From Demequina soli (lineage in GTDB: Bacteria; Actinomycetota; Actinomycetes; Actinomycetales; Demequinaceae), in assembly GCF_000971195.1 (NCBI RefSeq), contig NZ_BBLZ01000004.1:310001-374000 (forward strand): DNA of 64,000 nt, read 5' to 3'. A program made the translations under genes and the position numbers. Each line of letters starts with the position of its first letter. The first letter of the stretch is position 1. This document shows positions 22,205-35,671 of this stretch, piece by piece. Below the pieces are notes generated by a model that saw only the letters and a program-made list of their open reading frames with translations, was not told the origin of the DNA and ran no database searches.

Positions 22205-22300
22205 GATTCGCTCCGCACGGATCCCGTGCCGACACGCCGATGGCCGGCCCCCAGAGGGGCCGGCCATCGGCGTGTCACGGTCGGAACCGTGCTGAGCGAA
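22205..22300. repeat. ~96-bp inverted-repeat element, copy B
   Basis: The left end GATTCGCTCCGCACGGATCC and following CGACACGCCGA match copy A at 18820. The right end (about 22283-22300, GGAACCGTGCTGAGCGAAC) is the inverted partner. A further inverted TTCGCTCCGCAC lies at about 22306-22318. The core of this copy is a long perfect hairpin that can serve as a terminator. It lies between the converging pgl and Rdx genes. Confidence 0.7.
22231..22276. terminator. 21-bp perfect stem, two-way terminator candidate
   Basis: GACACGCCGATGGCCGGCCC begins the 21-nt left arm (22231-22251); the exact inverse is at 22256-22276, with a 4-nt loop. It sits between converging pgl and the Rdx-family gene and is symmetrical enough to stop transcription from both sides. 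There is no U-tract. Confidence 0.7.
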
Positions 22301-34480: not shown

Positions 34481-34527
34481 GAGGTGCTCAGTGCGCAAGA
34501 TCGCAAGAATCGGGCACTGAGCACCTC
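34481..34527. repeat. 14-bp perfect inverted repeat in the uvrA / membrane-protein divergent region
   Basis: GAGGTGCTCAGTGC (34481-34494) is exactly inverted at 34514-34527, with a 19-nt spacer that is relatively A-rich. It is 77 bp upstream of the uvrA LexA box and 54 bp upstream of the operator of the divergent cassette. It could be a regulator site, a transcript hairpin, or another member of the intergenic paired repeats. Confidence 0.6.
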
Positions 34528-34580
34528 GAAGCGCGACGGCCCGTCGCACGCGGCAACCCACACCACTGCGCCGCACGGTG

Positions 34581-34625
34581 GACTTTCCAGATCGGCAAGT
34601 CATAGGGTTGCCGATATGGAAAGTC
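34581..34625 (+). promoter_or_regulatory. Large palindromic operator covering the cassette promoter and start codon
   Basis: The left arm GACTTTCCAGATCGGCAA (34581-34598) and right arm TTGCCGATATGGAAAGTC (34608-34625) are inverse with one mismatch. Between and within them lie TGGACT (34579-34584, -35-like) and TAGGGT (34603-34608, -10), 18 bp apart, with the ATG 7 nt after the -10. The ATG lies inside the right arm. Binding here would block RNA polymerase; the winged-helix protein encoded by the second gene is the obvious candidate repressor. Confidence 0.7.
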
Positions 34626-35059
34626 ACGAGATGGCCGGCGCGGAGCTTGCCGCGGTCGAGGCCACGCGACGGCGCGCAGCCACACGCACCACACCATCGC
34701 CATGGTTCAGCGCGGCCTCCAGCACCCTTGTCGCCGCGTACGTCCTCACCATCCTGATCCCGGATGGCCTGCCGAAGTTCGCGAGCACCGCGGTGCTCGG
34801 GGGGCTCACGGTCGCGCTCGCGTTCGGTCAAGCTCGGCGGACCGGCGTGCGTCGGTACTCATGGTCGAAGCGCCAGGCCGCGGCCCTCGCAGCGGGCATC
34901 GCGACCCTGCTCGGGATCCTCTGCTTCGCCGTGTGGCTCCACGTCGCGCATCCGCTCACATGGGCGACCGTGGCATGCGCGACCGCGGCGTGGGCCACGA
35001 CGTTCACGTGGCACCGGTGGATCTACCGGTTGCGCAACGACGTGGTTCTTGCGACATGA
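34616..35059 (+). CDS. Small integral membrane protein paired with a winged-helix regulator
   Basis: A 147-residue protein with four hydrophobic segments (roughly residues 34-52, 58-74, 88-108 and 112-130), basic loops (QARRTGVRRYSWSKRQ) and no signal peptide. I do not recognise a named family. The soluble N-terminus (about 30 residues) is charged. The ATG is set by the leaderless promoter and palindrome. Its stop overlaps the ATG of the regulator gene (ATGA), so the two are co-translated. Small membrane protein plus wHTH pairs occur in many actinobacteria; they could form a membrane-stress sensor or an antibiotic-response unit, but the function is unknown. Confidence 0.75.
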   Translation: MESHEMAGAELAAVEATRRRAATRTTPSPWFSAASSTLVAAYVLTILIPDGLPKFASTAVLGGLTVALAFGQARRTGVRRYSWSKRQAAALAAGIATLLGILCFAVWLHVAHPLTWATVACATAAWATTFTWHRWIYRLRNDVVLAT

Positions 35060-35382
35060 CGGCCCAACCGCCGTTCGACGAGCTCATCCATGCTCCCCAC
35101 CGCCTGCGGATCATGGCGACGCTCGTGGCGGTCGGCACGGACGTCGAGTTCCAGGCGTTGCAGGACATCCTGGAAGTCGCCGCTCCTGTGGTGAGCAAGC
35201 ATCTGCGCTTGCTTGCCGACGCGGGCTACGTCCGTATCCTCAAGCCTCGCGGACTAGGGCGGGCGCGTACCTGGGTTGAGGCGACGCCGGCGGGCCGCGA
35301 CGCCTACATCAGCCACGTCGCCGCACTGCGCACAATCCTCGAGCAGGTCGGACCCGAGACACGCACCAGTGGTGAAGGATGA
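35056..35382 (+). CDS. Winged-helix transcriptional regulator (ArsR/MarR-like fold)
   Basis: A 108-residue single-domain DNA-binding protein. The sequence FDELIHAPHRLRIMATLV opens the fold, followed by the recognition region FQALQDILEVAAPVVSKHLRLLADAGYVRI (helix-turn-helix, residues about 34-63) and a basic wing (KPRGLGRARTWVEATPAG). This resembles the stand-alone winged-helix proteins annotated as DNA-binding HTH_27/ArsR-like in actinobacteria. No metal-binding Cys are present, so metal sensing is unlikely. It probably autoregulates the cassette through the palindrome at 34581-34625. Confidence 0.82.
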   Translation: MTAQPPFDELIHAPHRLRIMATLVAVGTDVEFQALQDILEVAAPVVSKHLRLLADAGYVRILKPRGLGRARTWVEATPAGRDAYISHVAALRTILEQVGPETRTSGEG

Positions 35383-35386
35383 GCAC

Positions 35387-35671
35387 ATGAGCCTCTACGC
35401 CGTCCACTACTCCTACGACGAGCGCTCCGCCGAGCGCGAGGACATGCGTCCGGTCCACCGCGAGTGGATCATGACGCTCGTCGACGAGGGGGTCGCCAAG
35501 GCGTTCTCGCGCTACGAGGACGGCGGCGAGCCCGGCGCCCTGTTGATCTTCGAGGCCGACAGCGCCGATGACATCGAGGCGATGCTCGCGGACGACCCGT
35601 ACCAGCGCGCGGGCCTCGTGGTCTCGCACTCGGTGCGGACATGGCCGGCCGGCGGCCCCTGGACCGCCTGA
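35387..35671 (+). CDS. YciI-family protein
   Basis: A 94-residue ferredoxin-like alpha+beta protein: LYAVHYSYDERSAEREDMRPVHREWI, with the conserved His-Arg region, then GALLIFEADSADDIEAMLADDPYQRAGLV, which matches the YciI dimerisation domain. Some family members carry an active His/Asp pair and act on chlorinated aromatics; most have no known function. GAAGGA lies 8 nt before the ATG. It is 4 bp after the regulator gene, so it is probably the third gene of this small operon. Confidence 0.85.
   Translation: MSLYAVHYSYDERSAEREDMRPVHREWIMTLVDEGVAKAFSRYEDGGEPGALLIFEADSADDIEAMLADDPYQRAGLVVSHSVRTWPAGGPWTA

Follow-up and report, generated by a model that had tools for sequence, protein, structure and literature searches.

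Among described systems, the closest counterpart of the locus analysed here is the SdpRI immunity operon of Bacillus subtilis, which, according to two published accounts, encodes the autorepressor SdpR together with the membrane protein SdpI (PMC1626106 and PMC11995493) and in which SdpI sequesters SdpR at the membrane (PMC1626106). On the side of the regulator, a similar winged-helix fold is found in the ArsR/SmtB metalloregulators and in PH1061 of Pyrococcus horikoshii (PDB 1ub9), which is listed just as a transcriptional regulator homologue. In the 64-kb stretch of DNA analysed in the present study (hereafter the window), a gene for a membrane protein overlaps a gene for a winged-helix protein of the HTH_34 family. 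No description of this gene pair was found in the open-licence literature, and a word search of that literature for PF13601 and HTH_34 found no paper. From a comparison of the locus with its relatives we propose, with a probability of roughly 55%, that the pair is an autorepressed two-gene module in which the membrane protein controls the repressor.

Three genes on the same strand, encoding the membrane protein, the winged-helix protein and YciI, lie between uvrA and terC (Table 1). The first two are joined at an ATGA junction with a 4-bp overlap, and yciI starts 4 bp past the end of the second; the gene coordinates thus confirm the layout given in an earlier reading of this DNA (hereafter the original prediction). 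That reading had also described a weaker codon bias than that of the neighbouring genes. This holds for the pair, with GC3 values of 0.838 for the membrane gene and 0.789 for the winged-helix gene compared with 0.949–0.981 for uvrC, uvrA, terC, uvrB and rpsA (names assigned by reading the translations; 0.973–0.981 for the uvr genes alone), but not for yciI, with a GC3 of 0.958.

Table 1. Features of the locus, with position in the window, strand and remarks
Membrane protein gene, 147 aa, first of the pair	34616..35059	+	Four helices; both ends predicted inside by hydropathy and charge
HTH_34 (PF13601) winged-helix gene, 108 aa, proposed autorepressor	35056..35382	+	Pfam 56.8 bits
yciI, old uvrA neighbour, outside the module	35387..35671	+	PF03795; may be co-transcribed here
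Predicted -35 hexamer TGGACT	34579..34584	+	Read from the sequence
Predicted distal operator O1, TTTCCAGATCGGCAA	34584..34598	.	From the last base of the -35 towards the -10; a second site recurs in relatives at 23–29 bp
Predicted -10 hexamer TAGGGT	34603..34608	+	Last T shared with O2, as its first base
Predicted proximal operator O2, TTGCCGATATGGAAA	34608..34622	.	Contains the start codon

Upstream of the pair, two 18-nt arms (34581–34598 and 34608–34625), 17 of whose 18 positions are matched (94% complementary), form an inverted repeat with a 9-nt spacer. When 18-nt arms with at most one mismatch and a spacer of 0–12 nt were searched for, two such places were found in the window, the other being a GC-rich hairpin near 22231, and none in 20 dinucleotide shuffles of the window. 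The repeat noted in the original prediction is therefore real and rarer in shuffles than in the window. Its description as one palindrome with 18-bp arms stood as far as the inverted repeat is concerned and was rejected as far as the unit is concerned, because the arms are separate dyads and relatives carry single or double 15-bp sites. Each arm contains a 15-bp dyad of the form TTTCC-N5-GG(A/C)AA: O1 reads TTTCC-AGATC-GGCAA and O2 reads TTGCC-GATAT-GGAAA, with their centres 24 bp apart. In the predicted promoter, 18 bp separate the two hexamers and 7 bp lie between the -10 hexamer and the ATG at 34616, a spacing that fits a probably leaderless mRNA starting at or next to this ATG. The claim that the repeat extends over the -35, the -10, the transcription start and the start codon was likewise supported, with the repeat now read as the predicted operator of the pair. 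A start codon inside the operator would be a compact design, as one bound protein would mask the -10 end, the transcription start and the start codon. In the genome of the window, TTTCC-N5-GGNAA occurs three times; as two of these occurrences are at this locus and the third (TTTCCGCCCCGGGAA) looks like a chance match, the target of the repressor is most likely this one operon.

Two other repeats were seen in the window. Just upstream of the pair, positions 34481–34527 hold a hairpin repeat, GAGGTGCTCAGTGC-N19-GCACTGAGCACCTC, the arm of which has 20 genomic copies at no more than one mismatch, with six pairs exactly 33 bp apart; this is an interspersed REP-like family, several copies of which have an additional CCG..CGG inner stem. 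The GC-rich repeat at about 22231–22276 is a perfect long inverted repeat that looks like a strong terminator and sits after a gene reading like 6-phosphogluconolactonase.

Relatives of the locus were collected using a profile of the repressor (A1, seven rows), a search of genome contigs with a single repressor as the query having returned only two. At E ≤ 1e-16 the profile found relatives in 187 of the 396 genomes sampled from the order (62 of 107 genera), and in a phylum-wide sample of 396 genomes 33 had a relative at the stricter E ≤ 1e-20, of which 12 belong to other classes. The operator was defined as two half-sites with 5 bp between them, each TTTCC or TTGCC but not both TTGCC, and was counted in 80 loci that were the best-scoring new relatives from the order-level list of 187 genomes. 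It was present upstream in exact form in 54 of these 80 newly fetched relatives and with at most one mismatch in 69, fractions that apply to the top-scoring members of the repressor family and not to HTH_34 as a whole, and two or more dyads were present in 34. In all such counts related species share descent, so the loci are not independent events; the loci at which the motif was first noticed are included in the counts over 87, 89 and 39 loci and lie outside the 54/80 and 69/80. Over the 87 loci whose upstream DNA was long enough, among them the window and the starting loci, there were 61 exact operators against a shuffle mean of 0.1, with three exact operators in the control region from -300 to +300 and no exact dyad when the half-sites were placed 3, 4, 6 or 7 bp apart. 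When one mismatch was allowed, 76 of the 87 loci had a site at the 5-bp spacer (shuffle mean 0.95), compared with two at 3 bp, seven at 4 bp, 19 at 6 bp and none at 7 bp.

A membrane partner, taken as a reading frame with at least two hydrophobic stretches whose end adjoins the repressor gene, was detected in 75 of the 80 relatives. All five partner-less loci (L089, L137, L143, L144 and L148) are among the 11 in which no operator was found, whereas the other six of the 11 do have the partner; one of these six, L090, has only 616 bp ahead of the repressor. When the scan was relaxed by dropping the TTTCC rule, sites appeared in L082, L113 and L144. Conservation of the palindrome with the gene pair in other actinobacteria had been set by the original prediction as its own test, and the 69 of 80 relatives carrying the operator at no more than one mismatch answer this in the affirmative.

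The placement of the operator in the relatives resembles that in the window. In 39 of 89 loci the membrane frame begins at an ATG at operator offset 8 (TTTCCnnnATGGAAA) and runs into the repressor gene, the commonest junction being a -4 overlap (21 of the 39). Seventeen of these 39 loci, including the window, have TANNNT ending on the first base of the proximal operator (background 0.0014 per position), and 25, again including the window, have at least a 4/6 match to TTGACA 28 or 29 bp before it. The spacing of double sites falls into two modes, 23–25 bp (16 pairs) and 27–29 bp (22 pairs), with one pair at 26 bp; as read from the predicted promoters, the second operator lies on the -35 or just behind it and the promoter position is kept. 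At other loci, judged by eye, the operator is at the -35 and the start codon is further downstream. At one locus (L009, genome G032) the pair is not near uvrA; it is preceded by TTGACA-18-TAACTT, and its neighbour is a gene with a terC-like end.

A sister group of regulators, also encoded behind a membrane gene, has TxGNL(S/T) in the recognition helix where the first group has SK. A different dyad, TTTG-N5-CAAA, which was chosen post hoc after viewing the sequences and controlled by other spacers and by the first group, occurs at seven of the eight sister loci and at none of 88 first-group loci, and its half-sites at spacers of 3, 4, 6 and 7 occur at none of the eight; the remaining sister locus (L011) shows TTTA-N5-TAAA by eye. 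This dyad replaced the sister pattern tried first, CAAACTAGTTTG, which matched with at most one mismatch in five of seven loci. The first-type operator (TTTCC type) was absent from all seven sister loci tested. The half-site and the recognition helix change together, with the geometry kept, and we regard this as the best non-experimental evidence that the repressor reads the operator.

The module was also found on plasmids. Relatives of the winged-helix protein (P0002) were present in 28 of 72,556 plasmid records, of which five were viewed. In Sphingomonas insulae, Kocuria flava, Streptomyces sp. 769 and Thermomicrobium roseum the membrane gene beside the regulator is annotated as hypothetical, and on the Arthrobacter alpinus plasmid it is unannotated and was recognised by its first codons only. 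Exact operators lie upstream on the Arthrobacter, Sphingomonas and Streptomyces plasmids and a one-mismatch site on that of Kocuria; the first-type operator was not found at the Thermomicrobium locus, which belongs to the sister group. At this last locus (L158, 1942–4515) the membrane gene, an HTH_34-like gene, an ABC ATPase gene and a permease gene form one run under a palindrome, AGTACTTTG-N5-CAAAGTACT, and these ABC transporter neighbours are the only hint of function found. The viewed plasmid records label the genes, if at all, 'hypothetical protein' and 'transcriptional regulator'; the labels stay this generic there although about half of the sampled genomes of the order carry a relative of the repressor.

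The membrane protein of the window (P0001) and the ten proteins of alignment A4 matched no Pfam family above its cut-off. A SpoIIGA match (18.1 bits, cut-off 28.4), unique to the window's protein among the ten of A4, was taken as chance. An alignment of 39 sequences, with that of the window, showed a short charged start, four hydrophobic stretches, and a middle loop and a tail that are both basic, with a conserved proline before aromatic residues (W, W and Y) ahead of helix 1. Hydropathy was judged by a simple sliding window, and both ends of the protein are predicted to be inside. The AlphaFold model was poor (pLDDT 52.9), with helices at the same places as the hydrophobic stretches. Two further observations concern this gene: in genome G017 a second membrane gene apparently lies between the first one and the repressor gene (by eye), and a 50-bp segment elsewhere in the genome of the window (L002; G000:C16:196119-196168) is 79% identical to the beginning of the membrane gene.

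In the module that we propose, one sigma-A-type promoter would give a leaderless mRNA for the four-helix membrane protein and the overlapping HTH_34 repressor. Repressor dimers would bind the two 15-bp operators, one against the -35 and the other over the -10 end, the transcription start and the start codon, and the bound repressor would hold the operon at a low level. On meeting its signal, the membrane protein would capture or inactivate the repressor, so that its own synthesis would rise; it may be a sensor, a protective protein or both. The likeliest signals are a peptide or drug active on the envelope, or a change in the membrane. We infer binding, repression, the leaderless start and the nature of the signal, and contact between the two proteins from natural fusions only. 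The comparison supports the pair, the operator, its geometry, the co-change with the recognition helix and the absence of the operator elsewhere in the genome, and we consider autorepression by repressor dimers on both predicted operators highly probable. That the membrane protein controls the repressor in the way that SdpI controls SdpR is an analogy that we put forward tentatively, at somewhat less than even odds.

The other candidate for the site of signal reception is the repressor itself. Its Pfam score (Table 1) is above the HTH_34 cut-off of 27, and its model (pLDDT 85.4) has a winged-helix fold with 1ub9 as the best PDB match (TM 0.80/0.86, rmsd 1.3). In the 89 unfused repressors S47 is invariant and K48 is 96% conserved. 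The protein was rejected as an ArsR/SmtB member (NF033788, 32.2 bits, below the cut-off of 55), and weak PADLOC Csa3 matches were taken as general winged-helix similarity. The fold neighbours of the model include ligand-sensing MarR, ArsR and PadR proteins, as would be expected if the repressor bound a small molecule and released the operator like MarR/ArsR, with the membrane protein only protecting or exporting and making no contact with the repressor; the ABC transporter ATPase and permease next to the distant relative on the Thermomicrobium roseum plasmid point in the same direction. However, the repressor has just 108 residues without an extra ligand domain, and membrane and repressor parts occur in one chain in three species, so that we judge this arrangement unlikely, although it is the strongest competitor of control by the membrane protein.

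Considerably less probable is a pure autoregulated housekeeping pair, in which the operator keeps the dose of the membrane protein constant and no inducing signal exists. Such a pair would agree with an operator that is found only at this locus in the genome and with the close overlap of operators and promoter, but the patchy spread of the repressor (187/396 in the order; 33/396 in the phylum at the stricter threshold) suits a conditional trait, and its occurrence on plasmids and in another phylum also speaks for a conditional trait rather than for housekeeping. An inducible module with the membrane protein in control remains our preferred reading.

The place of yciI was clarified by reading the uvrA flank in 44 genomes of the genus. 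The YciI protein belongs to the YciI family (PF03795, 37.9 bits, cut-off 24), and its gene directly follows uvrA, with no pair found in between, in 37 of the 43 informative genomes (in G018 the contig ends too soon). In G000, G011, G024, G025 and G026 uvrA and yciI are separated by the pair, a fusion or a remnant, and in G009 yciI was not found at the uvrA flank. Because yciI directly follows uvrA in the 37 genomes without the pair at this site, the pair is best read as a guest between two old neighbours, and the membership of yciI in the cassette, as originally claimed, was not borne out and was rejected. A three-gene stress cassette with YciI as its enzyme, for which the 4-bp distance to the repressor gene and a promoter that could serve all three genes may be cited, is thus highly improbable in view of this adjacency, of a yciI GC3 that matches the neighbours, unlike that of the pair, and of the five plasmid loci viewed (of the 28 records matched), where no YciI is annotated after the repressor. 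In this strain, yciI may be read from the promoter of the pair.

In three sister species the same site is occupied by single frames of approximately 250 aa that encode a membrane part followed by a winged-helix part: G024 and G025 each have two of them in tandem and G011 has one. The two parts of a remnant in G026 are out of frame with each other. With one fused protein as the query, the 44 genomes yielded no additional sites; this search missed the second G024 copy and possibly also weaker relatives. No fusion was seen among the 80 fetched relatives. S47 and K48 are kept in none of the six fused or remnant domains, and the consensus residues H12, F32, R36 and D37 are lost in all six (the window's own repressor has Q at position 36), whereas all six retain W73, T77 and G80 of the wing and H87, A90, L91 and R92 of the last helix. 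The operator was absent from all fusion and remnant loci, with a trace visible by eye at the aligned start. The tandem genes of G024 and G025 (L024 and L025) encode membrane-anchored winged-helix proteins without the conserved recognition-helix residues and represent a separate kind of protein.

The repressor tree had too few columns, and a grouping of the window's repressor with the fused domains (p-AU 0.606) was neither rejected nor established by it; the argument for a common origin of the fusions and the pair is their position at the same site and their moderate identity. Our reading is that the two proteins belong together physically and that the module, once it had lost the ability to read DNA, may have been put to new use as a domain anchored in the membrane. 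The fusions demonstrate that one chain can contain both domains; as their conserved recognition-helix residues are gone, they do not demonstrate control of DNA binding by the membrane part. A wider version, in which the pair is a widespread actinobacterial module whose membrane protein is both direct receptor and anti-repressor, and in which the two have merged within the genus of the window into a winged helix anchored in the membrane and no longer reading DNA, is conceivable but somewhat doubtful; if true, a transcription factor would have become a component of a membrane protein in that genus.

With this operator, its geometry and a specificity switch found in nature, the regulator and its target can be tested directly, and the promoter offers a ready reporter with which to look for the signal. 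With SdpRI, as described in PMC1626106 and PMC11995493, the module shares the two-gene operon, the small HTH repressor, the polytopic membrane protein and, as we infer for it, self-regulation. It differs in having the membrane gene first and about four helices rather than six. The repressor was rejected as an SdpR (NF033789, 12.9 bits, far below the cut-off of 100), and no SdpI family was among the Pfam matches of the membrane protein or of the ten A4 proteins. Since the genes are in another order, the number of helices differs and neither protein matches its SdpRI family, the module is not a member of SdpRI by these tests; by analogy, it would work like SdpRI if the membrane-capture step holds.
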